A stretch of DNA of 64,000 nucleotides from a virus, in the IMG/VR virus record IMGVR_UViG_3300007963_000006, positions 1-64,000 of that record; one strand, 5' to 3'. Within the stretch, counting starts at the first letter, position 1, and each line of letters starts with the position of its first letter. This document shows, piece by piece, positions 14,692 to 54,307 of the stretch. Both the position numbers and the translations under genes were made by a program. Below the pieces are notes generated by a model. That model made no database searches. It had not been told where the DNA came from and saw only the letters and a list, made by a program, of their open reading frames with translations.

Positions 14692-15173
14692 CTGGTCCCT
14701 GTTTGTGTGGTGACGACTTCTGCCCCTCATGTGGGGGTATGTGCCCCCATTGTAACTACGATGGCGACGAAATCATCCCTTGTGCGAAGTGCGGTATGAC
14801 AGATGAGGAAATGGAAGAATACCTGAAAGAATCTATGCCTGACCCCAAAGAGGAGGCGGCATATCAAAAAATTTCTGAACGAGTGGCGCGATTGATGGAA
14901 GATGTTCCCCGTGCCGTAAATGGGAACATACGCCATCGGCATACTGATTGCGAGCGTTGCGGCAGATTTCCCGCCAAGAATTTGGTCACAACATACGTCA
15001 CCAAAGGGCTGAAGATGTGCGGTCATTGTCGTCGCAGCACCATTAGTTACTATCGGCAAGAACACGGGGGCTATGGCTACAATCCCGTTGTCATCGTTGA
15101 GGCAGACTATGACATTGAGAACGATGATGAAGCACTGGCTTGGGTTCAACCACTGAAGGAGGAGAAGGCATGA
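14688..15173 (+). CDS. Multi-zinc-ribbon protein
   Basis: The 161-residue product has four Cys clusters in its first 40 residues (CLC, CPSC, CPHC, CAKC) and a second ribbon around residues 87-110 (CERC...CGHC). A helical acidic stretch separates them. At least three zinc sites are likely. It lies between the PC4-like and TFB-like genes, coupled to both by ATGA overlaps, which suggests a role with the transcription machinery. This is inference from context. Confidence 0.6.
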   Translation: MTGPCLCGDDFCPSCGGMCPHCNYDGDEIIPCAKCGMTDEEMEEYLKESMPDPKEEAAYQKISERVARLMEDVPRAVNGNIRHRHTDCERCGRFPAKNLVTTYVTKGLKMCGHCRRSTISYYRQEHGGYGYNPVVIVEADYDIENDDEALAWVQPLKEEKA

Positions 15174-15592
15174 GAGCATACACACAAGAATGGTTTGACC
15201 ACTACGGACAGGAAATAGAGAATTTGCTCTATCACATGGCCGATTTAGGCTCATGGCGAATTCTCGATCCACTGATTATCACCGAGATTCACGCGAAGTC
15301 GTATGCCCTGTGGGGATTGTCTGTGCGAGGCGCAGGTCGTCACCCACGCAATCTGATGCTTGACTGCATTTACATCTGCGCCAAATTGTCAGGCAATCGT
15401 GCATCTTATTCCGCCATCAAGCGTTCAGCAAAGATGCTGTGGAAGAAGAACATGGATATTCTCACACTGGACCGACGCCGTGACACGCGCCGTTGGTTTT
15501 GGGATTACGAGGCGGAGATTCGATCCATGTTCCCTGATGAATATGCGTGGAATGATTTCGTGAGCGAATTTGCGATTGCCGAAGAGGAATAA
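15170..15592 (+). CDS. TFB/TFIIB cyclin-fold-like protein (tentative)
   Basis: The 140-residue product has a helical pattern close to the first cyclin repeat of archaeal TFB: ENLLYHMADLG, then IITEIHAKSYALWGLSVRGAGR, LMLDCIYICAKLSG and SYSAIKRSAKML. These correspond to the family pattern of Ala...Tyr helix, GR turn, an A-x2-IY-x-ACR helix and a recognition helix. There is no N-terminal zinc ribbon and room for only one cyclin repeat. A viral TFB-like factor could redirect host RNA polymerase to viral promoters. Start at the ATGA overlap. No search was possible. Confidence 0.4.
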   Translation: MRAYTQEWFDHYGQEIENLLYHMADLGSWRILDPLIITEIHAKSYALWGLSVRGAGRHPRNLMLDCIYICAKLSGNRASYSAIKRSAKMLWKKNMDILTLDRRRDTRRWFWDYEAEIRSMFPDEYAWNDFVSEFAIAEEE

Positions 15593-15594
15593 GC

Positions 15595-17082
15595 ATGGCC
15601 TCACCGAATTTCTCACACATCGCCGCCTGTTGCAGACAGGCATACAATGGCGTGAGAAGGCCACACATCGTGTTGGAGAGCGCATTCGCGCTGTCACCGA
15701 AGGAAATACCCTCCCTAATCGAATTCTTCTATGAGGACGGTTCCATAGGCGAGCGTCTGTCCGATGAGGACTTGCGCGAAATCTTTTACAATCTCACCGA
15801 TCTATATCCTGAAGAGGTTGAGAGCGAGCCTGACTTGATTCAGATTCTCTCCAATCTCTCCGAGGAGATTGAAACGACAGTGAACTTCAAATTTGTTCAC
15901 GCAAACATGAAACAAATGTTTAGCGAATCCACAATTTTCACGACCCACACTTCTCAAGAAGTGGATAACAAGGTGCGCTCACTGCTCATGCGAACCCTGC
16001 TGAAGCGTGTGACGGCGCGAGATGCCTATTGGCTCATCCTCCGCCTCACGCGCAAAGCAAATCCATTCAAGCACCGCGACGTAGTGAATGCACTGGCGAT
16101 TCATCACAAAACACTGAAGGCGCGTGTGAGGAAAGAGGCACTGTTCACGCCGCTTTCTCAATTGGCACGGAAAATGCCCGAAGAATTGGTGGGTGTTCCT
16201 ACCATCGGTGCGCCACTGCTCATTCCACTACCCGCTCGCACATACGCGCCCCACTTCTTCATCGACAATTACCTTGAGATCATTCGTGGTGAACGACTGG
16301 TGATGCACAAGGGCGAGGATTTCATTTCATTTCACGATCCAAATGGGGTCGAAGTGGAAGTCGAACCCCATTTAATCGTGGGTGACTTTTTCGACGGCAA
16401 CCCCTTGCCTCACGGCATCTATCTTATCGAGCGGGTGCCGAAGGCCGAATATCCACTGAAAATTGTGGACGTGTTATATTCTCACGATTCCATCCAAGAT
16501 AAGCCGCTTCAAGATAGACGACTATGGTTGGAGGAAAATTTACCTGATATGTTCATCAAGCCAATGGAATGGGTGCAAAACGTCGCACAATTGAAGGCGA
16601 AAGCACCCAAGAATGGCTTGTGCTTCATCCACAATGCACGCGCCCCCGTGTCATACACCAACAGCCGCGAAGAGGTCGTCCGATTCAGCACGAAAGCCAC
16701 AGGGGATATATTCAGACTGATTGGCGGCGTATGGCGTCACGATGCAGGACGCGGGCTGACGCTCAATTCATGGCGTGTAGCCGCCCGTGATGGAATCGAC
16801 GGCTACTATGAAGTGGGCGACATTCCATGCGGGAACACCGATAGATCGTCCGATTTGGAAAAGACACTGGCGAAAATGACTGTCAAGGGACAGGCTGTTG
16901 AGGGCGAATTGCTCTTGATGGAGAACCCGACATTCGTTGATGTGCAGGTTCACTTCGCAGAATACGGCGAACGAGGAATTATCATTCAAGGTTCGATTGA
17001 AGGCATTGTCAATAACGCGGGCATATCCGATGTTGTGCCTGTTGAGGAAGTCGAATGGCTGATGGGTGGTGAGGAGGAATGA
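15595..17082 (+). CDS. ATP-dependent DNA ligase homologue lacking the catalytic lysine
   Basis: The 495-residue product follows the archaeal DNA ligase layout: a helical N-terminal DNA-binding domain (about 1-205), a GAPLLIPLPA segment matching the GxPvxPMLA that precedes motif I, then IIRGERLVMHK where active ligases have KxDGxRxQxHK. Later KIVDVLYSHDSI, PLQDRRLWLEE and EGELLLM match motifs IIIa, the pL-x-RR element and IV/V. The nucleophilic Lys is Ile and the Asp is Arg, while Gly-Glu-Arg remain. By knowledge of the family it should not form the enzyme-AMP intermediate. It may bind nicks or recruit partners. Coupled by ATGA to a methyltransferase. Confidence 0.6.
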   Translation: MASPNFSHIAACCRQAYNGVRRPHIVLESAFALSPKEIPSLIEFFYEDGSIGERLSDEDLREIFYNLTDLYPEEVESEPDLIQILSNLSEEIETTVNFKFVHANMKQMFSESTIFTTHTSQEVDNKVRSLLMRTLLKRVTARDAYWLILRLTRKANPFKHRDVVNALAIHHKTLKARVRKEALFTPLSQLARKMPEELVGVPTIGAPLLIPLPARTYAPHFFIDNYLEIIRGERLVMHKGEDFISFHDPNGVEVEVEPHLIVGDFFDGNPLPHGIYLIERVPKAEYPLKIVDVLYSHDSIQDKPLQDRRLWLEENLPDMFIKPMEWVQNVAQLKAKAPKNGLCFIHNARAPVSYTNSREEVVRFSTKATGDIFRLIGGVWRHDAGRGLTLNSWRVAARDGIDGYYEVGDIPCGNTDRSSDLEKTLAKMTVKGQAVEGELLLMENPTFVDVQVHFAEYGERGIIIQGSIEGIVNNAGISDVVPVEEVEWLMGGEEE

Positions 17083-18173
17083 CTGGTCTTTCTGTTGATG
17101 GTGTCACTTTACATCTCGGTGATTGTTTAGAGAAGTTACGCGAAATGGAGGACGAAATAATTGATTCTTGCATCACTTCACCGCCATACTACGGCCTCCG
17201 AAATTATGAAAATGAAGGTCGTTGGTGGGGTGGTGATATTGATTGCGAGCATGAAAAAGGTGCAATTATCACACATCAACGCCGATCTAATGACGGAGGT
17301 TCAGCAGGGAGAAAACAGACCACAAACAAGGGGGCAGGAAAACGCGATATGCCTTCCGAGCATTGTTATTGTGTGAAGTGTGAGGCATGGTTCGGGCAAT
17401 TGGGCTTAGAACCTTCTCCTGAAATGTTTGTTGCTAATCTTGTTGAGATATTCAGGGAAGTAAAACGGGTATTGAAGCCAACAGGCACCTTTTGGTTGAA
17501 TATCGGTGATACTTACTGGGGCGGCAAAGGAAAGAGCGGCCATAACAATGCTGATTATCAAAGCAAAAGAAATGATAAGCACTTGCAGAAATCGCACCAT
17601 AATGCAATAGGTGGAAAGGGACTTACTCGCCCACAGGACGGCAAACACGCTACGATCAAACCGAAAGATTTGATGATGTTACCACACCGATTAGCGATAG
17701 CCCTTCAGGATGATGGATGGTGGGTAAGAAATGACATCGTTTGGGCGAAGCCCAACCCTATGCCTGAATCCGTGAAGGACAGATGCGGAAGGGCACATGA
17801 ATACATCTTCCTTCTCACCAAGTCGAAGAAGTATTTTTTTGACCACGAAGCCATCAAAGAGCCGACCACAGATGGCAAAGGGAAACGCACAAGACGTGAT
17901 GTTTGGACCGTTCCTGTGAAGCCATACAAAGGGGCGCATTTTGCTACGTTCCCCCCTGAATTGATTGAGCCTTGCATTCTTGCAGGTTGTCCTGAAGGGG
18001 GTGTCATTCTCGATCCATTTGCGGGAAGTGGGACCGCAGCACTTGTCGCCTTGAAATTTGGTCGGCGTGCTATACTGTGCGAATTGAATTCTGAATACGT
18101 TCCATTGATAGAAAAAAGGCTCACGGGCGTTACACAGCGAAGTAAGTCACTGGAACAAATTACGGATTGGTGA
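17079..18173 (+). CDS. DNA methyltransferase, beta class, SPPY type, with PIP-like C-terminus
   Basis: The 364-residue product transfers a methyl group from S-adenosylmethionine to a base. Motif IV SPPYYGLRNY lies near residue 35, and motif I DPFAGSGTAALVALKFGRR near residue 310, which is the beta-class order. SPPY is common in N4-cytosine enzymes, but N6-adenine cannot be excluded. A Cys/His insertion (CEH...CYCVKC, about 60-110) before FGQLGLEP is typical of phage-encoded members. The last residues, LEQITDW, resemble the M-T-D-F core of p21-type PCNA-interacting peptides but lack Gln. Neighbours are the ligase homologue and small zinc proteins. Confidence 0.9.
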   Translation: MTGLSVDGVTLHLGDCLEKLREMEDEIIDSCITSPPYYGLRNYENEGRWWGGDIDCEHEKGAIITHQRRSNDGGSAGRKQTTNKGAGKRDMPSEHCYCVKCEAWFGQLGLEPSPEMFVANLVEIFREVKRVLKPTGTFWLNIGDTYWGGKGKSGHNNADYQSKRNDKHLQKSHHNAIGGKGLTRPQDGKHATIKPKDLMMLPHRLAIALQDDGWWVRNDIVWAKPNPMPESVKDRCGRAHEYIFLLTKSKKYFFDHEAIKEPTTDGKGKRTRRDVWTVPVKPYKGAHFATFPPELIEPCILAGCPEGGVILDPFAGSGTAALVALKFGRRAILCELNSEYVPLIEKRLTGVTQRSKSLEQITDW

Positions 18174-18432: not shown

Positions 18433-18581
18433 AGTGCCCCGAATGCAAACAAGAGGGATTCAAGATGATTGATTACCGCCCTATGGAACGCCCTATGGTG
18501 TCCGTCCGTGCCTCCAAGAAGGAGGTCGGAAAATTCCGCTGTTCCAATCCTGATTGCCGACACGAAGAGGTGATCGGCTAA
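18429..18581 (+). CDS. 50-residue zinc-ribbon protein
   Basis: The product starts with MKCPECKQEGF and ends with CSNPDCRHEEVIG, a C-x2-C...C-x4-C ribbon with 30 basic residues between the halves. The pattern recalls small zinc ribbons of RNA-polymerase-associated and toxin-antitoxin (MqsA-type N-domain) proteins, but is too short to assign. Overlaps are ATGA upstream and TAATG downstream. Confidence 0.55.
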   Translation: MKCPECKQEGFKMIDYRPMERPMVSVRASKKEVGKFRCSNPDCRHEEVIG

Positions 18582-18946
18582 TGGAGAAGGACGACTTGAC
18601 ACTACTACTCATCGCGCAGAACACGCGCATGAGGATTGCCTGTCGCTTGACGAGCAAGAATCAGACTGGGTATCAAATCCGTGCTGAATGCGATCTATTT
18701 GGCCGCAAAGCAATTCCCAATGACGTTCGACAATTCCTCACGAAACATGGACTGCCCACGCAGAACCGATATACGAAGCCGGAACACCTAACGCGGTTGT
18801 TGAGATTGCTCACACCGTATGCAGAATTCACAAAAGAGCCTCAAGGATTAAGGGCTGTGTCCTCCCTCGTCGGACGCCTTGTGACGCTACGAAAGCATGA
18901 GGACGTAATTTCAATTTTGGAGGTATTGGATAATGGCACTGTTTGA
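18581..18946 (+). CDS. Hypothetical protein
   Basis: The 121-residue product is helical and basic (TKPEHLTRLLRLLTPYAEF, SLVGRLVTLRKHEDV). The start at 18581 shares its first base with the preceding TAA. It has no zinc motif and no recognised family. It overlaps the following gene by 14 bases. Confidence 0.5.
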   Translation: MEKDDLTLLLIAQNTRMRIACRLTSKNQTGYQIRAECDLFGRKAIPNDVRQFLTKHGLPTQNRYTKPEHLTRLLRLLTPYAEFTKEPQGLRAVSSLVGRLVTLRKHEDVISILEVLDNGTV

Positions 18947-19517
18947 GGATGAAGAAGAGGCAGAAATGCCCGATCCGTTCTTGGTGTGCCCCAATGCTGA
19001 CGGGACGCCCCCCGGCATAGAGGATGAAAAACAACGAATCTTCAATGTGATGTTAATGCACACGCGAGAATGGGACCGGCTGCGGGTGGCGAGGGCACTG
19101 CATAAATCAGATACGAATAGAAGATATTTGGTGACTGTCATGCAATTGACATACCCCGGAAATAACGTCATTGATTTCGCAATCCGTGAGTTAATCCAAA
19201 AGGTGCCTGATGATTTGCTTTGCAGCATTCTTGCATTCGCTCACAATGGATCGGGCGGGCGTGTCGAAATCAAATTCCCTGAAAAGCGACAGGGTAACTT
19301 ACCCCGCACTTTGCTCCGTGCATTTGGATTGCGAGGAAGTGAGGGCGCATGGGCACACCGCCTATTGGAGAATGAATCCTTCATGCGGCGGGTCGCAAGT
19401 CGCATTCACAAGAAAGATTTCAAATGGCTCATCCATGATAAAGCAACGCTATACAATAAACATTCTAAAGAGGACACCGAGAGCCTATTGGCTATGGAAC
19501 AGGGGGCGAATGTATGA
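18933..19517 (+). CDS. Hypothetical protein
   Basis: The 194-residue product has an acidic start, then mixed helices and basic stretches (LPRTLLRAFGLRGSEGAWAHRLL, SRIHKKDFKWLIHDKATLY). It is not recognised. It is the last gene of the long operon behind promoter-like element 5; promoter-like element 6 follows within 10 bases of its stop. Confidence 0.55.
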   Translation: MALFEDEEEAEMPDPFLVCPNADGTPPGIEDEKQRIFNVMLMHTREWDRLRVARALHKSDTNRRYLVTVMQLTYPGNNVIDFAIRELIQKVPDDLLCSILAFAHNGSGGRVEIKFPEKRQGNLPRTLLRAFGLRGSEGAWAHRLLENESFMRRVASRIHKKDFKWLIHDKATLYNKHSKEDTESLLAMEQGANV

Positions 19518-19574: not shown

Positions 19575-20561
19575 ATGAAAGTCCAAATTCCTGATGAACC
19601 CGAAGAACAGCCTGTTCAATTGTGGCTCAAGTATCGTCCTGATACACTACAACACATGGTCGGGCTTGACAATCTAAAGAAAGATGCTTCAGGGTGGTTC
19701 GTGGCGGGCACACTTCGCATAAGCGGCATCGTCATATATGGGCCATCCGGCACAGGCAAGAGTAGTGGCGCACGCGCTCTTGCGAGGGATGCTCTCGGAG
19801 ATCGATTCACCGAAAACTACCATGAATTCAATGGTTCGGATGATAGAGGAATTCAATTTGTGCGTGAACGATTGAAGCCATTGGCCGAGCAAAAGGCCGT
19901 TGGTTCTAAATTCAAGATTATTTTTGTGGATGAGGCAGATGGTTTCACCCGCGATACGCAGGACGCACTGCGCTCAATCATCGAAAAAACAGGCACACAC
20001 ACAATGTGGATACTGGCCTGTAACTCAATTGGAAAGATTCGACCTGCGCTGCGTTCACGTTTGCCCGCATATTCCTTCCCTGCTCTTACTGTTGATGAGG
20101 CCGACGCATTCCTGTCTGTGGTCATCCATGAAGAGGGATTCCCAAGTGAATGGATTGCTTCTGTTCCAAATCTAATTCGTAAGCATCGCGGTGACTTGAG
20201 GGCTTGCCTCAAGACCTTGCAGTTATGTGATCCAACAGATGATTTGGCGTTGGATGAAGTGATGCACGATGATTTGATGGCGATTGACGATCTATACTGT
20301 GCGGTCCTCAAAAATCGGTGGGATGAAACAATGGGACTCGCCGCGAAGGTCGAAAGACTGGGTGTGAGCCGCGAGGAAATCATTGACGCATTCCACCGTG
20401 CTATTACTGACGCATACGAAAACAATGAGTCAGATGCTAAACATACCCTAACCCACCTGTGCGTCCTCGGACTATGGGCCGCACGTTCCCCTGACTGGAC
20501 CGCAGGGACTCTCCTATTCCTCCATGCACTTATTGGAGATTACAGAAAAAGAGGAATGTAA
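19575..20561 (+). CDS. rfcS: Replication factor C small subunit (clamp loader ATPase)
   Basis: The 328-residue product loads the sliding clamp on primer-template DNA. Motifs in order: LWLKYRPDTL (RFC box), Walker A GPSGTGKS (residues 56-63), Walker B IIFVDEADG (about 115-123), sensor 1 LACNS (about 151), and SRL where RFC subunits have the SRC arginine finger. The length matches archaeal RFC-S. No RFC large subunit is seen in the window, so it may act as a homo-oligomer or with host RFC-L. First gene of the replisome operon behind promoter-like element 6. Confidence 0.92.
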   Translation: MKVQIPDEPEEQPVQLWLKYRPDTLQHMVGLDNLKKDASGWFVAGTLRISGIVIYGPSGTGKSSGARALARDALGDRFTENYHEFNGSDDRGIQFVRERLKPLAEQKAVGSKFKIIFVDEADGFTRDTQDALRSIIEKTGTHTMWILACNSIGKIRPALRSRLPAYSFPALTVDEADAFLSVVIHEEGFPSEWIASVPNLIRKHRGDLRACLKTLQLCDPTDDLALDEVMHDDLMAIDDLYCAVLKNRWDETMGLAAKVERLGVSREEIIDAFHRAITDAYENNESDAKHTLTHLCVLGLWAARSPDWTAGTLLFLHALIGDYRKRGM

Positions 20562-20562
20562 A

Positions 20563-21900
20563 ATGAATGAAGCAAGAATGATAGGAAACGAATGTTTGGA
20601 TGAAGCAGCGAAGATACTCGGCATTGGCCGAGAAGAGGCAGAAGCCTCCTTCGGTGCATGGATGGCCGAAATCTTCCCCGAAATGTGGGATGATGCCGGA
20701 CAAAAGGCAGACGGTTTGATTGATGATGACTACAACCACTACGCAGACCAATTCGTGTCAGCGAGCGCACCACGCGGTGGTGGCGGTGGCGGTGGATCGG
20801 GCGAAGAATGGGTCGGTATGGTTGTCGGCTTCACCAAGCGTCTTGATTTGATGACCCGAAAGCGTGAGATGGCTATTGATGTCGCTACGGCTGACATTGG
20901 AACAGCAATCAAGAATGGCTTCACTTACAACGGCAAGCACACTGGGATTGGTCGGGCGCACACGCAGAATGATGTGTGGCGCGTTGAGCATTCCGATGGG
21001 CTGTATGTGTCGAACGAGGCAGCAGACACTTCTCCAAATTGGGTTATCCCAATCAATGAGAAATTGTCGATTGCTATGCTGAAGCCTGACAAGACGCCTC
21101 AAATGGCATACTCTCTCAAGTCCATGTGGATTTTTCACGGCAACCTGAAGGACAAATTGTTGGACGAAGGCCCAATGACTATCCTGCTTGAAGGTGCGTG
21201 GGATGCAGCCGAAATGAATTGGAAGATGTTCACACCAATTACCCTGAAGGGCAAATTTGACCCTGATGGTTGGAACGACAGTGGCCCAACCCTGACTGTG
21301 GGCAACACCAACGTAACCTATGGTTTGGATTGGGTGTCTGATAATCACAAGGAGGCTGTTGAGAAATTCTTCGATCCAACCCAATACTTGACTACGATGG
21401 CTATGTGCCCGTTGTCAGATTTACTCTCCCATCACTTCGATGGTCGCAAAGAATCCTATACGGACAGAAACGGCAATCAACGCTATGACGGCCCAATCAC
21501 CTGTGTTGTCGGCAACGTGCAGAATATCAATCACGAAGGCCGTGAGAAGCAGTGGGATCCAACGGGACGTGACTACTGGTTGTCTATCAGCAATCAATCA
21601 CTACGCCGTGAGAATCCAAACGCTGCTATCGGCATTGGTGTTAGCGGTCCTTTACACGATGACCACAACGGCATGAATGTTCTGCTACGCGGAGAATGGC
21701 TTCCATTCACCAACGGCTCTCGCATCTATGTCGTGGGTCGCACTGATTCATACACCAACCAAGAAGGTGATGACATCGTGAAGATTGAGGCTCAAGGTAT
21801 CTATGCGGTGCCGAAGAAGTCTATTCCTGCAAAGCGTCCGAGCGAGGAAAGCAACGATCTCGGTAACTTGAGCGGATTCGGTATGGATGGTGACAATTGA
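20563..21900 (+). CDS. RPA-like single-stranded DNA-binding protein (tentative)
   Basis: The 445-residue product starts at ATG 20563 (two bases after the RFC stop, with AGAAAAAGAGG before it). It has a helical N-terminus with a seven-Gly linker (about 66-75), at least one segment that looks like an OB fold (EWVGMVVGFTKRLDLMTRK), and a C-terminal segment TCVVGNVQNI...GRDYWLSI of similar type. It ends in an acidic tail (FGMDGDN), a feature of single-stranded DNA-binding proteins that recruit partners. Its position between RFC-S and a Sak4-like ATPase supports the role. No zinc finger is seen. Confidence 0.5.
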   Translation: MNEARMIGNECLDEAAKILGIGREEAEASFGAWMAEIFPEMWDDAGQKADGLIDDDYNHYADQFVSASAPRGGGGGGGSGEEWVGMVVGFTKRLDLMTRKREMAIDVATADIGTAIKNGFTYNGKHTGIGRAHTQNDVWRVEHSDGLYVSNEAADTSPNWVIPINEKLSIAMLKPDKTPQMAYSLKSMWIFHGNLKDKLLDEGPMTILLEGAWDAAEMNWKMFTPITLKGKFDPDGWNDSGPTLTVGNTNVTYGLDWVSDNHKEAVEKFFDPTQYLTTMAMCPLSDLLSHHFDGRKESYTDRNGNQRYDGPITCVVGNVQNINHEGREKQWDPTGRDYWLSISNQSLRRENPNAAIGIGVSGPLHDDHNGMNVLLRGEWLPFTNGSRIYVVGRTDSYTNQEGDDIVKIEAQGIYAVPKKSIPAKRPSEESNDLGNLSGFGMDGDN

Positions 21901-23159
21901 TGGCAGGAACAGGCTTCCTTGACTCTTTCACGCCCAAGAAGGGCAATTACGAGCCTTCTAAGCCAACGAAGGTGGCTGCAAAGCCTTCCAAGAAGGCGAA
22001 GGAGGAAAAGAAGCCTGTCAAGGCGAAGAAGGCCGAGAAGGTCGTCAAGAAGCCGGAACAGCCGGTGTTGAAGGTATCTTCCCCTCCTCCTCGACCAATC
22101 GAGGTTTTGAATGAAGGCGAGGAGAAGGCATTCCCTGACAGTCGCACGGTCATTGTATCCGATGATGCCCCACCACGAATGGTGCCTGAACCTGAATTCA
22201 ATGATGCAGTCATGGCGTTTAATCCATCGATCCAACGAATGCTGCAATCAGCGAGAAATGCACCTGTGATTGATCAAGAATACATTCTTTGCGGCATATA
22301 CGGCCCTCCAAAGTCCGGTAAGACTGGAATTTGTATGGATAGTCTATCCGAGGAGGACATTGAAAATGGTGCTGAAGTCATTCACGTTGATTTCGATATG
22401 GGCGGTGCGTCCACACGCGCTGCTCACCATGCAGATAAGGCCCATCACATCTTGGTTCTCAATCCGTGGATCGTTCAATATGGGGAGAGTCGTGAAACAT
22501 ACGACTTCCCTGCTACATTCCAACAGACCATTGACATTCTCAAAGGGGCTGTGGCTCAAGCCGAATTCCAAGTCGAATACCGACAGAAGAACGGCACTAT
22601 GCCTCCAACCTATCTCAAAACCGTTATCTTTGACGGCTGCGACCAATGGCAACATATCTGTGAAACCCTGATGAAGATTGAGGATTTGGAATTGGGTCAC
22701 GATGGGATCGATGCAGCGGCATTCCTTCGTCAGCGCGAAAAGGGCGGCGAGAAGAAGAAGTCCGTAAGTCGCTTCAATTGGAACCTGCGAAAGATTCGCT
22801 ATCAATTAGCCTTCCATCTTCTCCGTGAATTGTGCCGACTGGGTGTGCATTGTTATCCAATCACGCACACAAAGTCTGACTACGATTCAAGCGGTAACGA
22901 GATTCGCGGTAGTGCTTCACCTGCATGGCTCAAGGATACCGAGGGCCAATTGCAGCAATTGATTTGCACTGAAATTGAAGATGAGCGCGATGACAGCGGG
23001 GAATTGACAGGCATTTCGCGTGCCTATGGTCGCCTCCTATGGCGTCGAACGAGTCTGAACACGCCGGAGCGTTGGGTCATCTTTGAGCGCAACCCTGACG
23101 GTGGCGAATGGTTCGGGACACCGGGCATGGCTCAAGGCACCTTTGGGGTGATTGAATGA
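21900..23159 (+). CDS. Sak4/RecA-like recombination ATPase with H1-like basic tail
   Basis: The 419-residue product has a P-loop core of the phage Sak4 (AAA_24) type: Walker A GPPKSGKT (about 135-142), VIHVDFDMGGAS, and Walker B-like KTVIFDGCD (about 240-248). Sak4 proteins assist strand annealing and exchange with single-stranded DNA-binding proteins. Residues 20-60 form a Lys/Pro/Ala tail (SKPTKVAAKPSKKAK) like linker histone H1, which would bind DNA. The extreme N-terminus, TGFLDSFTPKK, resembles N-terminal PCNA-interacting peptides. The start shares its A with the preceding stop. Followed directly by the clamp gene. Confidence 0.75.
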   Translation: MAGTGFLDSFTPKKGNYEPSKPTKVAAKPSKKAKEEKKPVKAKKAEKVVKKPEQPVLKVSSPPPRPIEVLNEGEEKAFPDSRTVIVSDDAPPRMVPEPEFNDAVMAFNPSIQRMLQSARNAPVIDQEYILCGIYGPPKSGKTGICMDSLSEEDIENGAEVIHVDFDMGGASTRAAHHADKAHHILVLNPWIVQYGESRETYDFPATFQQTIDILKGAVAQAEFQVEYRQKNGTMPPTYLKTVIFDGCDQWQHICETLMKIEDLELGHDGIDAAAFLRQREKGGEKKKSVSRFNWNLRKIRYQLAFHLLRELCRLGVHCYPITHTKSDYDSSGNEIRGSASPAWLKDTEGQLQQLICTEIEDERDDSGELTGISRAYGRLLWRRTSLNTPERWVIFERNPDGGEWFGTPGMAQGTFGVIE

Positions 23160-23950
23160 CCGGCTGTCGCATTTCATACGGTCGATTGCGCCATTTCCTC
23201 AAGGGATTCAATATGGACGATCTAATCCTCAACATCACTGAAGAGGGCATAGAGGCCGCAGGGACCGAGCAGAAGATGTTTTACATCCACAAGTGGACTC
23301 GCTATCAAGCAAATGAGGGTGAATGTATCGAAGCAGGTGACATTCCAATCGGTCAATTGGCTACATTCATTTCATTGATTGGTGAATGTGGGCAGGGAGG
23401 CGACGAAATCGAATTGTCCTATACGGACGATGTTATCACCGTGTCCGGCCCCCAATCCACCTTCAGCATTCCTTCTGTGACCAACCCTGCATCCCAAGCA
23501 GGTGTTGAAGTCATCAGCGGCTTCATTGAAGCGGCTGAAGCAGACGACTGGAAAACCTTCGGTCAAGGTGGTGTGTTCGATTATCACTTGGAATTCGACG
23601 CTGAAGCATTTCAGCAATTACGCAATACAGGAAAAGCCATTCAATCCGGCTCTCTCTATTGCGTGGAGGTTGGTGACGAAACACTGACCCTTAGTGTGAA
23701 GCGCGACAGTGTGCGCGTGGATCGTTCGATAGAACACAACAGCACATTCGATTCAGACGAACCCGTGATTAACTGGTTCGGTCAATGGTTAATGGACGCT
23801 CTCAAGGCTATGCCGGGTGTGGGAGAAGTCCATGTTCATGGAGGGAATCACGCACCCTTCCTCATTCGCCAAGAAGCGACTGGGACGGACACTGGATATG
23901 GTCAAACATTGGTCGTATCACCCCGGCAAGAGTCGGGGGCGAATAAGTGA
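23156..23950 (+). CDS. pcn: PCNA-like sliding clamp (divergent)
   Basis: The 264-residue product has the length of an archaeal PCNA. The start FLKGFNMDDLILNITEEGIEAAGTEQ fits the family pattern of first helix, strand and E-x-GI-x-A-x2-MD loop. IELSYTDDVITVSG and TLTLSVKRDSVRVD fit the paired strands of each clamp domain. It lies between the Sak4-like ATPase and PolB, and a clamp loader is encoded in the same operon. Divergence is high, so the call rests partly on context. Overlaps are ATGA upstream and GTGA downstream. Confidence 0.65.
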   Translation: MTGCRISYGRLRHFLKGFNMDDLILNITEEGIEAAGTEQKMFYIHKWTRYQANEGECIEAGDIPIGQLATFISLIGECGQGGDEIELSYTDDVITVSGPQSTFSIPSVTNPASQAGVEVISGFIEAAEADDWKTFGQGGVFDYHLEFDAEAFQQLRNTGKAIQSGSLYCVEVGDETLTLSVKRDSVRVDRSIEHNSTFDSDEPVINWFGQWLMDALKAMPGVGEVHVHGGNHAPFLIRQEATGTDTGYGQTLVVSPRQESGANK

Positions 23951-26340
23951 TTATTGACGCATTCGATCCGGCTGACGGAGAAGGAAAGCACATCTATGTG
24001 CGATACAGGAATGATGACGGCGAAGTGATGGAACGCATCGTTGATGACTTCCGACCTTACTTCTTCGTTGAGAATCTGAATACTGAACGCCTGTCGGCGT
24101 TGTATGATGATAATTTCGATGGTTGGGGCACTGGCGGTCTTGCCGAGGCCAAAGATGGTCGAGAATTGCTACAAATCTATGCCCCTATGCCTGAAGATGT
24201 CAAGCGCATGAGGAATATGGCGGAGGAAACATGGGAGGCCGATATGCACTTCCCCGATAGATTCGCCATTGACACCTTCACAGAACCGAGCGGCGAACAG
24301 CCAATGCCTGATTGGTTCTCCAACACCGTTCGTGCCGGTGGCTTCGATATGGAATGGAATGAGGATGGCGCAATCACCGCTATGGGTTACACCACAGACG
24401 GTGAGCAGGTTCACCAATGGTCTTGGCATCCAAATGCTTGGAATGAACTCATTACAATGGATGCAAAAGGAATTGAGTCGAATATGTATTCATCCTATTT
24501 CACCAATGAAAAGGAGATGCTTGAGGATTTTGCGAACGCATTCAACCTTCTTGATCCGGACGTTATCACCACATGGTCCGGCAATCGTGCTGACTGGCCG
24601 AAATTGTATGAACGATTCAAGCATCACGATTTGAGCATGGATTGGATTTCCCCCATCGCATCCGTCAGCCATTCACCACCAATGAAGCACCTTCCGCGCA
24701 GTGGCTACTACGAGGACGGAACACAGGTCATACTGGGCCGGATGACCATTGACTTGGCTGATCGAAATCATGGCTTTGAGCGTGTGTGGAAAGATAGCGG
24801 CAAAGGGCAATTGGGTGATCGGCGTCTTGGTTCTGTGCTGAAAGAGGCATTCCCGAACAACCCTGAATGGCATAAGATTGATTTTGAGAATGACCCTGAA
24901 TTGCTTGACGAGGAGGGGAATTGCATTGTGGACGGCCACCATGACCTGTGGCTCAATCACTTTGACAAATTCATTGACTATCACAGGCAGGACATAATCG
25001 GCACGGATCGACTGGACCGAGAGTATCACGTCACCCGCTTCTTCATGGCGTTGCAGCAGGTCTGCGGCGTGTCCTTCTCATCTGTATTCACCGTGAGCCG
25101 CTTCGCAAGAGGATTGTTGCGACGGCGGGCATGGTGGAAAGCACCCACAGGCAACAAGAAGCAGAAGCACGAATCATACGGAGGGGGCTACATTCCCAAT
25201 GCGGTGGGTGGTCGTCACGATATGGTGGCTGTATTCGACTTCAGGGCGCACTATGCCGCCATCCAAGAGGGGCACAACATCAGTCCTGAAACGCTACGCG
25301 GGAAGGACGGGGAATGTTGGGTGCCGATGACAGACAATATCTTGGCGTTGGAGAACGGCACCTTTTGGGAACAGTCCGAAATCGGTGTTCTCCCTGAACT
25401 GCAAATTGATTTGGCTGACGCAAGGAACGCAGCGAAGCAGGAAATGAAAAAACACGACCCCAAGAGCAGTGAATACGCCGGATTTAACACCCTTCAATTG
25501 GCCTTCAAGCGGGCGGCTGCGTCAGTGTATGGCCTCATGGGACACACAGGGCACGGCGAGAGCGATCTAACTGTTGCCTCCACTATCACCTATGTTGGCC
25601 GTGAATTGCTGAAACGCTTGATGGAAATATGTGAGGAGATGGGCTACACCCCATTGGCCGCTCACACCGACAGCGCATACATCGCCATTGGTGACGCTGA
25701 TGGTCACGAAATTGCCGAGCGTTTAACACAAACCATACAGGATGAATGGAACACCGATAAATTCATTGTCGAATTTGAAAAACTCATGCTGCATTGGGTG
25801 GCCCACGATGAGGTCAAGAATCGAAACTTCGGGTGGGTCATTTGGCCCAAAGAAGGCTTGCACTGCACCGGCTTTGAATTGAAGAAGTCCAATGCCGCTG
25901 AAATCACGAAGCGCATTCAGGAAACGGCATTCATCAGTATGTGCAAGGAGGGTGCAAGTGAGGACGACATACGCGAATTGGTGAATTCGTGGATCGCATC
26001 TGTGCGAACCACAGTCAAACGCGAAGCATTGGTGATGCGTTCACGCTTGGGCAAAAAGCCGGAGGCATACGGGAACAAGGGAGGATTTCAAGGTGCAGCG
26101 AAACGCTACAATGACACCAACCCCCGTGAACCGTTTGTGATAAGAGATGGGGTGCCTCACGTCTATTCGACAAAGGGCATCGAAGCATTCAGAACGTCCG
26201 AGGAATTAGAGAAAATAAACTTGGACTACACAACGATAATACAGAAGCAGATTATCGCACCAGTTAGCCTCATCTTTGAGGCGATGGGATGGAAAGAACC
26301 CAACGCTGATGGTGCGGTGCCGCAGGACTGGTGGAATTGA
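23947..26340 (+). CDS. polB: Family B DNA polymerase with 3'-5' exonuclease
   Basis: The 797-residue replicative polymerase starts at GTG 23947 (GTGA overlap). Exonuclease motifs: FDMEW (Exo I, about 134), NRADWP (Exo II, about 214) and YHRQD (Exo III, about 344-348), so proofreading should be active. Polymerase motifs: A in FDFRAHYAAIQ (about 430), B KRAAASVYG (about 520; the usual NS-x-YG Asn is Ala) and C HTDS (about 573; the usual first Asp of DTDS is His, the metal-binding second Asp is kept). Length suits an archaeal B-type enzyme. Confidence 0.95.
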   Translation: MIIDAFDPADGEGKHIYVRYRNDDGEVMERIVDDFRPYFFVENLNTERLSALYDDNFDGWGTGGLAEAKDGRELLQIYAPMPEDVKRMRNMAEETWEADMHFPDRFAIDTFTEPSGEQPMPDWFSNTVRAGGFDMEWNEDGAITAMGYTTDGEQVHQWSWHPNAWNELITMDAKGIESNMYSSYFTNEKEMLEDFANAFNLLDPDVITTWSGNRADWPKLYERFKHHDLSMDWISPIASVSHSPPMKHLPRSGYYEDGTQVILGRMTIDLADRNHGFERVWKDSGKGQLGDRRLGSVLKEAFPNNPEWHKIDFENDPELLDEEGNCIVDGHHDLWLNHFDKFIDYHRQDIIGTDRLDREYHVTRFFMALQQVCGVSFSSVFTVSRFARGLLRRRAWWKAPTGNKKQKHESYGGGYIPNAVGGRHDMVAVFDFRAHYAAIQEGHNISPETLRGKDGECWVPMTDNILALENGTFWEQSEIGVLPELQIDLADARNAAKQEMKKHDPKSSEYAGFNTLQLAFKRAAASVYGLMGHTGHGESDLTVASTITYVGRELLKRLMEICEEMGYTPLAAHTDSAYIAIGDADGHEIAERLTQTIQDEWNTDKFIVEFEKLMLHWVAHDEVKNRNFGWVIWPKEGLHCTGFELKKSNAAEITKRIQETAFISMCKEGASEDDIRELVNSWIASVRTTVKREALVMRSRLGKKPEAYGNKGGFQGAAKRYNDTNPREPFVIRDGVPHVYSTKGIEAFRTSEELEKINLDYTTIIQKQIIAPVSLIFEAMGWKEPNADGAVPQDWWN

Positions 26341-27299
26341 TGATTACACATCGGGCACCACGTCCAATCCCAGTGAAGGGGCACGACGATTTATTCTCCT
26401 GCTATCACTGGCACCCCGAAATGCCGGATAATGTCATTCTCCGTATGAGTAAATCGTCGCTGCTGTCTGACTTCGGGTTTTGCCAACAGCAGGGCTTCAT
26501 CAAGCGCATTGTGGGTATGAAGGAACCACAGAACGACAATATGCTTCGGGGAACCAATGTTCACGATTCAGTGGAATTATTCTATGACCGCGTGGATATT
26601 GAAGAAGCGAAGGCAGCAGAAGATATGCTCAAACTTGACAGGTATTTCCAACGCTGTTTTCCCAAACCACCTGAAATCCGTTCCGCTCAAGACTCATTCT
26701 ATTTGGATGAAGATTTGCACCTTGACAGGTGGCGAAAGGTGGAAGTGGAGAGATTCTTAGGTTCCGATCCAGAAAACTTCCTCCCGACTGGAAATGAATT
26801 GGTGGTTGATCATATCATGGATATTGAAGTCGATGGTGTGTCACAACCAGTGCATTTCACGGGCATTATTGACCGTATATTCACCAACCCTGACGGCTCA
26901 CTACACGTTCACGAATTGAAAACCGGACTGTGGAAGGACACCAAATACAAGTATGAATCCATGCGAAAGGAAATGGCCTTCTATGTATGGATGCTACGCA
27001 AGATGGATGCTTCAACACCAGTCACACACTGGGGTTGGGACCACACGAAAGGGGTCAAGGGCACCGATAGCGAGGATGCCCAAGTATTCCGTTACGTTGA
27101 ACCAGTGCGCGTCAAGGAAATTGGCCTGATGTTGGCTGATGTGCATAATCTCATTCGCAATTATCGTCGCTACAAGGGCGACGGTGACGGGTCCATGTTC
27201 CCTTTGATTTCTGCCTCTATGCAATCACGCCTTTGCGATCCGTGGTGTGCCCTCAAGGAATTCTGCCCGCGCTACGCCAACGTCTTGGAGGACTACTGA
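26340..27299 (+). CDS. Cas4/RecB-like PD-(D/E)XK nuclease with iron-sulfur cysteines
   Basis: The 319-residue product has the nuclease motif as IDRIF...HVHELKTG (Asp near 178, ELK near 190). A Cys near residue 48 together with C-x3-C-x5-C near the end (CDPWCALKEFC, about 299-309) matches the four-Cys iron-sulfur arrangement of Cas4 and AddB. Such enzymes trim DNA ends for recombination or repair. Start ATG 26340 shares a base with the PolB stop; GTG 26331 is an alternative. It ends in VLEDY, weakly like the methyltransferase C-termini. Confidence 0.8.
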   Translation: MITHRAPRPIPVKGHDDLFSCYHWHPEMPDNVILRMSKSSLLSDFGFCQQQGFIKRIVGMKEPQNDNMLRGTNVHDSVELFYDRVDIEEAKAAEDMLKLDRYFQRCFPKPPEIRSAQDSFYLDEDLHLDRWRKVEVERFLGSDPENFLPTGNELVVDHIMDIEVDGVSQPVHFTGIIDRIFTNPDGSLHVHELKTGLWKDTKYKYESMRKEMAFYVWMLRKMDASTPVTHWGWDHTKGVKGTDSEDAQVFRYVEPVRVKEIGLMLADVHNLIRNYRRYKGDGDGSMFPLISASMQSRLCDPWCALKEFCPRYANVLEDY

Positions 27300-28795
27300 T
27301 GAGTTACGAATTGGTTCAGGGCGATTGCCTCAAGGTCATGGAGAGGGTGGAGGACGACAGCGTGGATTCTATCGTCACCGACCCCCCGTATGGATTGACC
27401 CAAAACAAGCGGGGTGGCAGTGGGGCAGCAAGCGCAAGTAATGAAACGCCATACGGCAGGGCAAGAATTGGAACGGGGAATGGGGCAGGTGGCTTCATGG
27501 GTATGAAATGGGATTCCGGCGTCCCTCCTGTTGAGATATGGGAAGAGGCATACCGAGTCTTGAAGCCGGGGGGTTATCTGCTTGCTTTTGGTGGTTCACG
27601 GACCTATCACCGAATGGTGGTGAACATTGAGGATGCGGGCTTTGAAATCCGTGACCAAATCATGTGGCTGTATGGGTCGGGCTTTCCAAAATCACATTCC
27701 GTCAGTAAGGCCATCGACAAACTCGGTGGCGATTCTGCCGTCCTTGTTGAAATGGCGCAAGCACTGGAACAGGCTCGCCTTCAAAGAGGCATGACAATCA
27801 AGGAATGTGATGACAAATTCTGCAACGGTTCAACAAATTGGAATTGGATTGAAGGGAAGCGAGATAGAATCACGCAGCCATCCGAGGAACAAATGAAATT
27901 GATTGCTGAAGAATGGTCTGAAATGGAACCAATCTTTGACGCCTTCAATGTCAAGGGTAACGTGGTGGGTTCAATTACACATTCCAGATCGGGCGGGAAG
28001 GATTTCGCAAAACAAGTCGGCTCTCAAGCCGAGAAGCGTGCGGAAATTGTTTTTGATCACGGCACTGACCCCGCTAAACAATGGGAAGGTTGGGGAACGG
28101 CCCTCAAGCCCGCCCATGAGCCTATCGTAGTGGCTCGCAAGCCCTTCAAGGGCACAGTGGCCGAGAACGTGCTTGAACACGGCACAGGGGCCATGAACAT
28201 TGATGGGTGCCGTATTCCATCCGATGAAGAAGTGAAAACTTCAATAGGGGCAGGTTTTGGAGGAACAAGTCTGTTTGAGGGAGGAACAAAAGAAAGAAAA
28301 GAGAGTGAAGTGCGACAAGAGCGTTGGCCCGCTAACGTCATTCTTGACGAAGAGGCCGGTGCTATGCTTGGCGAAGAATCACGCTTCTTCTATTGTCCGA
28401 AGGCGAGCAAGTCCGAGCGCAACAAGGGTTGTGAGGAATTGGAACCACAAAAAATGGGTCGTAATCAATCATCACTTGATGGTGGGAAAATACTCACGGG
28501 TTCAGGGAATGAGAGAAGTAACGAGAAACAAAACCACCACCCCACCGTCAAGCCGGTGGATTTGATGAAATATCTATGCCGTCTTGTGACACCACCCGGC
28601 GGTGTCGTTCTCGATCCATTCATGGGAAGTGGAACAACGGGCATAGCCGCCTGTGTCGAGGGCTTCAATTTCATAGGCATTGAGCGTGAAGAGGACTACA
28701 TCGAAATCGCTCGCAATCGAATTGAAACATGGGTTGAGGAAAAGGAAGAACAAGTGCGTGAGGAACGGGCACAGACAAGCCTCTTTGATTGGTGA
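27299..28795 (+). CDS. DNA methyltransferase, beta class, DPPY type, with HTH insertion and C-terminal PIP box
   Basis: The 498-residue product carries motif IV DPPYGL near residue 27 and motif I DPFMGSGTTGIAA near 440. The core (GWGTALKPAHEPIVVARKP, then HGTGAMNIDGCRI) is that of bacteriophage N6-adenine methyltransferases, so exchange with phages is likely. Residues about 148-205 hold an insertion like an XRE helix-turn-helix (EQARLQRGMTIKECD...WIEGKRDRI). The last seven residues, QTSLFDW, fit a PCNA-interacting box (Q-x2-L-x2-aromatic) and resemble QATLFDF of Pyrococcus RFC-L. The start at 27299 overlaps the preceding stop. Confidence 0.9.
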   Translation: MSYELVQGDCLKVMERVEDDSVDSIVTDPPYGLTQNKRGGSGAASASNETPYGRARIGTGNGAGGFMGMKWDSGVPPVEIWEEAYRVLKPGGYLLAFGGSRTYHRMVVNIEDAGFEIRDQIMWLYGSGFPKSHSVSKAIDKLGGDSAVLVEMAQALEQARLQRGMTIKECDDKFCNGSTNWNWIEGKRDRITQPSEEQMKLIAEEWSEMEPIFDAFNVKGNVVGSITHSRSGGKDFAKQVGSQAEKRAEIVFDHGTDPAKQWEGWGTALKPAHEPIVVARKPFKGTVAENVLEHGTGAMNIDGCRIPSDEEVKTSIGAGFGGTSLFEGGTKERKESEVRQERWPANVILDEEAGAMLGEESRFFYCPKASKSERNKGCEELEPQKMGRNQSSLDGGKILTGSGNERSNEKQNHHPTVKPVDLMKYLCRLVTPPGGVVLDPFMGSGTTGIAACVEGFNFIGIEREEDYIEIARNRIETWVEEKEEQVREERAQTSLFDW

Positions 28796-28801
28796 TGAAA
28801 C

Positions 28802-29863
28802 ATGGCGCACATATTCCGACATTTCCCGCGTGAAGTGGATATGCGAAAGAGGAAAGTGGTGCATAACATGGACGAATTGCAGCATTACGTCAAGGCCACC
28901 AACGGTGCTGATGACCTGACAACCACCGTCTATGGCTTCCAACAATTGAAGCCAAAAGGCAATCGTGGTGAGTATTCCACAGCCATTGTGCCCCACTTCG
29001 TCATTGATATGGACTACGAACGGGCTAAAACACCCTCTAACACGGCGCGAGAGGCAGGGAATCGTTGTCTGCGGGAAGTATTGGCCCTGCACCATCATTT
29101 GCTCTCTAACGGGTGGAAACACGCCATGTGGTTCACAGGCGGTGGCGTCCACATTTGGGTCAATCTCGATCAGACGCACTATCCCGAGGAAAGCCTATCC
29201 GATTTATTCGTCACTGGACGGCGTATGATTGACGGTTGGGTCAAGCAGTGGGATTTATCCACGCTCGATCCAGTCGTGTCATTCCGCCCTGACCGTCACA
29301 TTCGCATTCCTAACACATACAATTTCAAGCGTGGCCTATGGGGTATGCCGCTTCAAACCAGTGACCTTGAGGGTGATTGGGAGGAAATCTTGTCACGGGC
29401 TGTCGAGCCGCACGGGGGCATGAATCTCTATGGGCAACACGGGTTACATTTGGACGTGAAGAAGCGTGACCCTGCAACCCCCTTTGAGGCCGAGAAGGTG
29501 GACGTGGATATGAAGCGCATTGGGTCTATTTCTGTGCTGCCTTGCTTGGCTGCTGCGGCCTGTGAGGAGGGTGGCAATCCTCCACATGAGGCACGCATCT
29601 ATCTCACCATGTTCCTTCAGGACCGGCTTCGGTCTTTCGCACGTCCCCCTCAATCATCACAAACGAGCAACGATGGTATCGTAGCCTCGATCTGTAACTT
29701 CATCAAGGATTTGAAATGGTCTGACTACAATGAGGAGATAACTCATCAAAATGTTAAGCACAGTGTTGGGAGTCACTACATGACCCCTTCTTGTCGCACG
29801 CTTTACGCGAAGGGATATTGCATCGGTAAATGTCCTTTCTATGACGGCACAGGGGGTGTCTGA
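28802..29863 (+). CDS. Archaeo-eukaryotic primase, PriS-PriL fusion type
   Basis: The 353-residue product makes primers for PolB. The PriS part has FVIDMDYE (metal-binding DxD, about 68-72), WFTGGGVHIWV (S/T-G-x2-H motif, about 113-120) and FRPDRHIRIPNTYNFK (about 162-176). The C-terminal 110 residues contain four Cys (LPC near 247, SC near 330, GYC and KC near 340-343) and SVGSHYMTPSC, matching the iron-sulfur domain of PriL. Such fusions are known from Nanoarchaeum and some archaeal elements. Last gene of the operon before the AT-rich repeat region. Confidence 0.8.
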   Translation: MAHIFRHFPREVDMRKRKVVHNMDELQHYVKATNGADDLTTTVYGFQQLKPKGNRGEYSTAIVPHFVIDMDYERAKTPSNTAREAGNRCLREVLALHHHLLSNGWKHAMWFTGGGVHIWVNLDQTHYPEESLSDLFVTGRRMIDGWVKQWDLSTLDPVVSFRPDRHIRIPNTYNFKRGLWGMPLQTSDLEGDWEEILSRAVEPHGGMNLYGQHGLHLDVKKRDPATPFEAEKVDVDMKRIGSISVLPCLAAAACEEGGNPPHEARIYLTMFLQDRLRSFARPPQSSQTSNDGIVASICNFIKDLKWSDYNEEITHQNVKHSVGSHYMTPSCRTLYAKGYCIGKCPFYDGTGGV

Positions 29864-29944: not shown

Positions 29945-30262
29945 ATGACGGATGAATTGGATGAAATACGCAAGAAGAAGATGGCTGAAATCAGCGATAA
30001 GATGAAGCAAGTCGAGAAGGATGTTGAAGAGGTAAGAGCCATGCAGAATGAATTCACATGGGCTGACTTTGGAATGGATGAACCGATGTGGGGCTTCCGC
30101 GAGAGCGAGGATATGCCCGGTGCTTTCGATGTTTGCCAACAAGGTGAAACCGTTGCTTTAACGGGCGACCCCCGATGGGCCATGCTTGTGACCGATCTGC
30201 TGAACCGAGCCAAATTGGAAGAACTGATTGTCAATTCAAAGGAGGGTGAAAAGGATGATTGA
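29945..30262 (+). CDS. Hypothetical protein with PDCD5-like N-terminal helix
   Basis: The 105-residue product begins MTDELDEIRKKKMAEI, close to the N-terminal helix of archaeal PDCD5-type DNA-binding proteins, then continues as a coiled coil to about residue 33. The rest (WADFGMDEPMWGF, PRWAMLVTDLLNRAKLEELI) does not fit PDCD5, so only the helix is comparable. GGTGATT precedes the start. It overlaps the nuclease gene by eight bases and may act with it. Confidence 0.5.
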   Translation: MTDELDEIRKKKMAEISDKMKQVEKDVEEVRAMQNEFTWADFGMDEPMWGFRESEDMPGAFDVCQQGETVALTGDPRWAMLVTDLLNRAKLEELIVNSKEGEKDD

Positions 30263-30962
30263 GAAGGTGCTTTACATCGACAACCGAGAGCGGTCAGGGC
30301 TTGAGGAGGCTGTCAAAAGACACGCCACCAAACAGAAAATCAAGTGGGCTGTCAATCAAAATCTCATCACCGACTACTGCTACGGAACACTTGGGATCGA
30401 AGCCAAATCAATGGCTGATTACATTCAATCGCTACAAAGCGGCCACCTGCAACACCAGTTAGAGAATATGGACGACAATTTCCAACGCATGGTTCTCATC
30501 ATTCATGGTCGAATCGACAAGTATGTGAGCAATATGCGGAAGCGTGGAGGGCGCACACCTTACGCACGCATAGAAGCCATGTTCATTGGTTCGTTGGCCC
30601 GCTTCGACGTTGATTTCGATATGACCATCATGCACTTTGAAACCGCGTCGGCGGCGGCACGGTGGATTGTAACACGCTGCAAGAAGGATGGGACCATCGG
30701 AACAGTGAATACCTATCGCACCTTAAGACGCACTTCCAGTGAGGACGTTCGCATTGATGGTTTGAGAGCCATTGGTTGCAGCGAGGCCATCGCCAAGCGA
30801 CTGTTGGATCGCTTCGGCTCAATCGCTGAAATTAGCAGTGCGCCTGTGAAGGAAATGATGGCTCTTGACGGCATCGGAAAAATCAGGGCAAAGCGAATTT
30901 CTGAAGCCCTCAACAGTGAAGAAGCCGTTGTGAAAGAGAAGGTCAAAATGAAATCAGCCTAA
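30255..30962 (+). CDS. XPF/ERCC4-family structure-specific endonuclease
   Basis: The 235-residue product has the ERCC4 nuclease core: YIDNRERSGLEEAV (D-x-RE, about 7-20), TDYCYGTLGIEAKSMADYIQSL (GD-like strand, then E-x-K-x3-D where the family has ERK-x3-D), and MVLIIHGR. Two helix-hairpin-helix motifs follow (GLRAIGCSEAIAKRLL, about 175-195, and LDGIGKIRAKRI, about 208-222). It should cut branched DNA at forks or recombination intermediates. No helicase domain and no C-terminal PCNA peptide are seen, unlike Hef or crenarchaeal XPF. ATG 30255 follows GGAGGG. Confidence 0.88.
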   Translation: MIEKVLYIDNRERSGLEEAVKRHATKQKIKWAVNQNLITDYCYGTLGIEAKSMADYIQSLQSGHLQHQLENMDDNFQRMVLIIHGRIDKYVSNMRKRGGRTPYARIEAMFIGSLARFDVDFDMTIMHFETASAAARWIVTRCKKDGTIGTVNTYRTLRRTSSEDVRIDGLRAIGCSEAIAKRLLDRFGSIAEISSAPVKEMMALDGIGKIRAKRISEALNSEEAVVKEKVKMKSA

Positions 30963-36290: not shown

Positions 36291-36631
36291 CAGCGAACCT
36301 CCATAATCACATCGACTCGTATTTCGTTTGTAGCATTTTTGCTAATCGGCATGAAGGACGTGCGGAATGCGGGGTTATCAAGCGGTGTCGCGCCATGCAC
36401 GGCCACTTCTTTGATGTCGCTTGCAGTGATGAGAGAAGTGTCGAAAATGCCGGTGATTGATACGGTCCTGTCATCGATCCGTTGCACGGTGGGGGTAATG
36501 GTGTGAGCCACGTTCCCTGCCCCACCATCACGACTGGATGCAGCCCCTCCTGCGGTTCCTATACTCATCTTCGTCACCAGTGTTTCCAAGTGAGCCGCTA
36601 ATTTCGCTTTGATTCCGTCTAACACTGGCAT
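36290..36631 (-). CDS. Small virion-associated protein
   Basis: The 113-residue product has an N-terminal helix (LDGIKAKLAAHLETLVTKMSIG) and then beta-rich sequence (DRTVSITGIFDTSLIT). It is coupled to the giant tail gene by TAATG and to the next by TGATG. It is likely a tail-tip or fibre accessory protein by position. Confidence 0.55.
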   Translation of the reverse strand: MPVLDGIKAKLAAHLETLVTKMSIGTAGGAASSRDGGAGNVAHTITPTVQRIDDRTVSITGIFDTSLITASDIKEVAVHGATPLDNPAFRTSFMPISKNATNEIRVDVIMEVR

Positions 36632-46443: not shown

Positions 46444-46444
46444 G

Positions 46445-51661: not shown

Positions 51662-51663
51662 AA

Positions 51664-54303: not shown

Positions 54304-54307
54304 AATA

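Follow-up and report, generated by a model that had tools for sequence, protein, structure and literature searches.

Gene content of the locus

The stretch of viral DNA analyzed here (the window; 64,000 nt of an IMG/VR virus record) encodes, within a block of replication genes, a protein related to ATP-dependent DNA ligases that we refer to as the pseudo-ligase (Table 1). The family B DNA polymerase (PolB), the clamp loader (RFC) and the primase of the window fit an archaeal-type replisome, and the 264-aa protein encoded ahead of PolB is possibly PCNA-like, judged by position only. The window contains three separate DNA methyltransferase genes, one of them directly downstream of the pseudo-ligase. 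Very large late ORFs lie on the opposite strand; guessing from their size and strand, they are probably tail or fibre proteins.

The MCP of the window's record is closest to that of Druskaviridae (HVTV-1/HCTV-1; 34%). A Cpn60/TCP1 chaperonin, a protein associated with MGII viruses in earlier work (PMC5332604), was detected in six of the seven other pseudo-ligase records tested and was absent from the window's incomplete record. The proximity of the MCP to Druskaviridae, together with the chaperonin in related records, suggests that the source is likely a magrovirus-like Poseidoniales virus; the related ocean viruses are probably viruses of archaea. The longest pseudo-ligase records span 97-108 kb, and complete magroviruses have been reported as 90-110 kb (PMC12999244).

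Table 1 Features of the replication block, the pseudo-ligase and the late ligase-domain genes. Positions refer to the window unless another record is named.
Feature	Position	Strand	Remarks
Cluster 4 gene, 150 aa, conserved	15140-15592	+	25 members; immediately or almost immediately upstream where the locus extends far enough
Pseudo-ligase gene	15595-17082	+	495 aa, ATG start; DBD, NTase and OB fold
N-terminal helical domain, residues ~1-195	15595-16179	+	Ligase-DBD-like (AlphaFold2 secondary structure, hhalign)
Most conserved family stretch, residues 55-75	15757-15819		LSDEDLREIFYNLTDLYPEEV; in the N-terminal domain
Motif I region, residues 228-238 (EIIRGERLVMH)	16276-16308	+	Catalytic Lys absent
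Motif IIIa (IVDVLY)	16462-16479	+	Sole recognisable later motif; D292 invariant (39/39)
Motif IV position (GLCFIHN for EGLMAK)	16615-16635	+	Glu and Lys lost
Motif V position (VVRFSTK for WLKIK)	16675-16695	+	No aligned Lys pair
N6/N4 DNA methyltransferase	17079-18173	+	PF01555, 6e-51; inserted here only
Small basic protein, cluster 3	18554-18946	+	130 aa, pI 10.0; in nearly all pseudo-ligase loci
Cluster 13 protein	18933-19517	+	Common to active-ligase viruses too
Clamp-loader (RFC-like) AAA+ ATPase	19575-20561	+	PF00004, 1e-14
Candidate ssDNA-binding protein (weak)	20524-21900	+	27/27 loci; phrog_44 only, E 0.056
Sak4-like recombination ATPase	21897-23159	+	phrog_124, 9e-7
264-aa protein	23156-23950		Sliding-clamp place before PolB; no database match
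Family B DNA polymerase	23947-26340	+	PF00136, 1e-23
PD-(D/E)XK nuclease	26331-27299	+	PF12705, 4e-14
DNA methyltransferase	27233-28795
Archaeo-eukaryotic primase, large-subunit-like C-terminus	28802-29863	+	PF04104, 1e-5
ERCC4/XPF-type nuclease	30228-30962	+	PF02732, 6e-14
DNA methyltransferase	33248-34516
Very large late ORFs	36631-54390	-	3285, 1740 and 908 aa
Late ligase-domain gene, partial copy	68223-68519 of 68525 (window's record, beyond the window)
Late ligase-domain protein	L084: 275-3760	-
Late ligase-domain protein	L087: 2364-5687	+
Late ligase-domain protein	L335: 1696-4209	+

The pseudo-ligase is homologous to ATP-dependent DNA ligases

No ligase match to the pseudo-ligase was obtained in Pfam, PHROG or NCBIfam. 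Across the 39 family members, PF01068 and PF04679 matched none and PF04675 matched two (best E 6e-4); the best PDB sequence match was human LIG3 (E 0.02), and profile searches against the PDB returned chance matches only. Relatives were found neither in annotated phage genomes nor in GTDB genomes. HVTV-1 gene 103, considered for its similar size and place, was rejected as a relative and encodes a Walker-A (Sak4-like) protein.

Modelling with AlphaFold2 from an alignment of 39 family sequences gave a pLDDT of 88.5; an earlier model from 7 sequences (pLDDT 58) was set aside. When the model was compared with the PDB using Foldseek, the best 50 of 72 matches (E ≤ 0.001) were all DNA ligases rather than proteins of a different fold, an outcome for which the first-pass annotation had allowed, and the top match was the Pyrococcus furiosus ligase (2cfm; E 2.9e-21, 565 columns). 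TM-scores were low (~0.34) and the rmsd large, as expected if the domain arrangement differs, and the homology that we claim from the model is that of the separate domains, not of a closed ligase complex. Profile alignment with hhalign matched the family end-to-end to 65 archaeal ligases with a probability of 97-99%, and hmmsearch with the family profile directly retrieved four intact viral ligases (contigs L318-L321; E 1.6e-10 to 3.2e-8). AlphaFold2, Foldseek and hhalign all place the three-domain DBD-NTase-OB fold of ATP-dependent DNA ligases in the pseudo-ligase. The first-pass annotation was thus right to call the protein a ligase homologue, and the region that it marked (16200-17000) does fall within the ligase-like sequence; it covers the NTase/OB part, however, and the whole gene is longer (Table 1).

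The pseudo-ligase is ~50-70 residues shorter than most archaeal ligases. The family is also acidic, with a mean pI of 5.3 versus 8.3 for archaeal ligases, and net acidity is seen in both its NTase and its OB part; the virus's own PolB and RFC share an acidic character. Judged from composition, this acidity does not favour encirclement of DNA by the pseudo-ligase.

Catalytic residues are lost throughout the family

Motif I of ATP-dependent DNA ligases is KxDGxR, with a nucleophilic Lys. All 65 archaeal ligases carry E-x-K-x-D-G, whereas in the profile alignment the pseudo-ligase family lacks a single residue where the Lys stands. The family otherwise retains the Glu (36/39), the Gly (39/39) and the subsequent His (39/39) and has E, R or Q in place of the Asp. 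Among 54 distinct sequences with a readable motif I, none has a Lys three residues before the motif I Gly. The first-pass annotation, which had read 'IIRGERLVMHK' (residues 229-239) at motif I and concluded that the catalytic Lys was replaced, is confirmed on both points, and the substitution that it proposed to seek in relatives proved clade-wide and broader than it had claimed. The motif III Glu, present in 65/65 archaeal ligases, falls in a gap inside a large deletion; the Glu and Lys of motif IV (65/65) are replaced by a gap and W/R/H; and the K..K of motif V (65/65) reads L/R/V..N/S/V. The description of later ligase motifs as recognisable therefore holds for motif IIIa and fails for the catalytic residues of motifs III, IV and V. 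The R-(E/D)-D-K of motif VI was not seen in the aligned C-terminus, where the alignment is weak. In the DBD, the 'MRxG' motif (Arg in 63/65 and Gly in 65/65 archaeal ligases) has kept neither residue.

Given these losses in motifs I, III, IV and V, self-adenylation is very unlikely, and we infer from these sequences that the pseudo-ligase lacks ligase activity. It might still be an enzyme if another residue accepted AMP or if the pocket had acquired a new chemistry, and the conservation of E228, G232 and H238 near motif I, and of K322, could be read in that way. We nevertheless consider this very improbable, given the combined loss of the motif III Glu, the motif IV Glu and Lys and both motif V Lys. 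A search of the alignment for another Lys in the AMP site, the counter-case named in the first-pass annotation, pointed the same way: K239, the Lys of 'MHK', is a Lys in only 9/39 family sequences, and an active enzyme using it was dropped for that lack of conservation, while K322, the only Lys that never varies in the NTase domain, sits in the stretch separating motif IIIa from motif IV, at no known catalytic position.

The archaeal PCNA-binding loop was not seen in the alignment of either the pseudo-ligases or the intact viral ligases, which leaves a clamp-borne role without direct support. Absence of the loop was dropped as an argument, being common to the pseudo-ligases and the intact viral ligases.

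Related viruses carry an intact ligase in the same slot

Four marine viral contigs (L318-L321), identified by scanning with an archaeal ligase alignment, encode an intact ligase (KYDGxR, EGxxxK). In the two ligases examined with Pfam models, PF01068 matched with E-values of 2e-31 and 6e-38, alongside C- and N-terminal ligase domains. The gene order on these contigs is ligase, cluster 13, RFC, SSB-like and Sak4-like, followed by PolB in L318 and L319; the SSB-like gene was recognised by one of two profiles in L320 and by none in L321. The shared slot, together with the direct profile match to the L318-L321 enzymes, indicates at the sequence level that the pseudo-ligase is the positional ortholog, now dead, of a ligase of the viral replisome.

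This position is fixed across the family. In 27/27 loci compared, the pseudo-ligase occupied the same place in the replication block, upstream of the SSB-like and Sak4-like genes; in the window's subclade, cluster 13, RFC, the possible PCNA and PolB also follow. Other contigs without the pseudo-ligase apparently end on that side. The cluster 3 profile found no match in the active-ligase contigs L318-L321, and its small basic protein is a candidate partner of the pseudo-ligase.

The gene is also maintained by selection. Of the nine pairs that could be measured, eight gave dN/dS values of 0.05-0.10; the ninth, the window versus L007, gave 0.21, a value based on 23 changes. In the tree, the 39 pseudo-ligases form a single clade (support 100/100) on a long stem (1.94). 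The simplest reading of this topology is one loss event in the ancestor of the clade, although the tree was midpoint-rooted and, with so long a stem, the exact sister group is not fixed. One family member (L017, 897-1790) has an internal stop codon, a single case in which assembly error is possible. A decaying pseudogene is excluded by purifying selection (dN/dS 0.05-0.2), the single clade and the fixed place in the replication block, in line with the first-pass view of a full-length gene that is not decaying. Read together with the lack of ligase matches in Pfam, PHROG and NCBIfam, the stop in L017 might suggest such a pseudogene, or a protein with no ligase relative at all; we give this reading practically no weight in view of the dN/dS values, the position kept in every locus compared, the Foldseek E-value and the direct HMM match to intact viral ligases.

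The first-pass annotation described the pseudo-ligase as tightly coupled to a methyltransferase and named marking of viral DNA as one possible role; a further reading has the two proteins acting together to that end. The start of the methyltransferase gene does overlap the pseudo-ligase stop in the window genome (17079/17082). However, the methyltransferase lies directly downstream in only 1/27 loci, that of the window; the coupling is a feature of this one genome and does not support DNA marking, a joint role in which we regard as highly improbable.

Nick sealing and a second, degenerate ligase domain

No intact ligase was detected in the pseudo-ligase records (up to 108 kb) using PF01068, PF01653, PF09414 or the archaeal ligase profile, the last of which does recover the L318-L321 ligases. 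Any of these records may be incomplete, and an intact ligase could be encoded beyond the contig ends. The obvious candidate for sealing nicks is the host ligase, as we infer from these searches.

Weak PF01068 matches in these viruses were considered as a possible active second ligase. They were rejected, as the domain concerned, which belongs to a late gene, is itself degenerate in the clade. A late protein of ~1,110-1,185 aa (590 in one frame) with a ligase-like domain occurs in 20 pseudo-ligase records, and a partial copy lies at the end of the window's record (Table 1). Across 13 aligned copies from pseudo-ligase viruses, motif I of this domain reads KPEGKR, MPEGKR, RPEGKR or a similar sequence; motif III has lost its Glu, the motif IV Lys is Arg in 13/13, and motif V contains no Lys. 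On G029, an active-ligase contig, the late domain is intact (EKYDGMR, VLDAEVV, EGVMIKD, WVKWK; E 9e-25). Comparison of the motifs of the two genes thus indicates that both ligases look intact in G029 and that both are degenerate in pseudo-ligase viruses. The late gene of G029, like that of the window's record, directly precedes a putative prohead protease, named by its sequence. The annotated ligase gene of a group A magrovirus adjoins the prohead protease (PMC7318539), which fits a match to the late gene rather than to the replication-block gene.

The degeneration of both domains, as if sealing were unwanted, lends some support to an alternative, in line with the nick binding suggested in the first-pass annotation, in which the pseudo-ligase is a nick-binding cap, clamping nicked DNA unsealed and shielding chosen nicks or ends from host ligase and nucleases. 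Retention of the ligase fold would suit such a cap; loss of the 'MRxG' Arg and Gly from the DBD and the net acidity of the NTase and OB parts speak mildly against it, and we consider it unlikely. An extension of this idea, which strikes us as improbable, is that the lineage switched off both its replisome ligase and its late virion-module ligase and kept both bodies because nicks in its DNA are wanted, the inactive proteins binding and guarding them through replication and packaging.

Proposed role of the pseudo-ligase

We favour, with somewhat better than even confidence, a reading in which the pseudo-ligase is a structural subunit of the replisome and nicks are sealed by the host. An ATP-dependent DNA ligase ancestor would have sat in the replication gene block of the lineage, and the nucleotide-binding machinery would have been lost in the ancestor of the clade. 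The three-domain body would then have been retained under strong selection for a structural role in the viral replication complex, much as the inactive ligase domain of poxvirus A20 has a place in the polymerase holoenzyme. There it would probably contact other replication proteins and perhaps fork DNA, and Okazaki nicks would be sealed by host ligase. The structural role is drawn from genomic position and the A20 precedent only. The best-conserved part of the family (residues 55-75; consensus LSDEDLREIFYxLTDxYPEE; conservation 0.76 at residues 61-80) lies outside the old active site and is possibly a protein-binding surface.

Published descriptions present magroviruses as replicating almost self-sufficiently and as having a ligase of their own; in a large related clade, the slot is occupied by a protein whose catalytic residues are lost. 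This is a warning that the label 'DNA ligase' in archaeal-virus annotations need not mean nick sealing. The clade, set beside relatives whose enzyme is apparently intact, also offers a natural before-and-after pair for studying roles of a replisome ligase besides ligation.

Comparison with known systems

Archaeal ligases of the P. furiosus type share with the pseudo-ligase the DBD-NTase-OB order and motif IIIa, and the marine viral ligases of L318-L321 share the domain order, motif IIIa and the genomic slot. The pseudo-ligase differs from these enzymes in its missing motif I Lys, its deleted motif III and the loss of catalytic residues from motifs IV and V. For Poseidoniales magroviruses, an 'ATP-dependent DNA ligase' has been annotated within the replication set (PMC10768690, PMC12999244, PMC10160649), and these reports contain no comment on activity loss. 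Nor did the open literature covered, which did not include the founding magrovirus paper of Philosof et al. (2017), mention inactive ligases earlier.

Catalytically dead ligases can serve structurally. Mammalian Lig4 carrying K273S, a laboratory mutation, does so and helps to recruit another ligase (PMC11754673); that protein is an engineered mutant of a normal enzyme, whereas the pseudo-ligase is a natural pseudo-enzyme. Another parallel is A20, the processivity factor of vaccinia virus and MPXV, whose middle domain is an inactive ligase within the vaccinia polymerase holoenzyme (PMC11142717). Both proteins are viral, have an OB fold after an inactive ligase catalytic domain and are associated with replication, the pseudo-ligase by gene position. 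Only A20 has an N-terminal part that binds a glycosylase and a C-terminal domain that binds the polymerase; the pseudo-ligase, in contrast, has a ligase-type DBD, and all of its 495 aa align with the ligase core, leaving no extra domain. A20 resides in the polymerase holoenzyme, whereas genomic proximity alone links the pseudo-ligase to the polymerase, and the likeness is one of analogy only, without demonstrated sequence relation. On this analogy, the pseudo-ligase viruses may be a second viral line, after the poxviruses, in which a dead ligase has joined the replication machinery.
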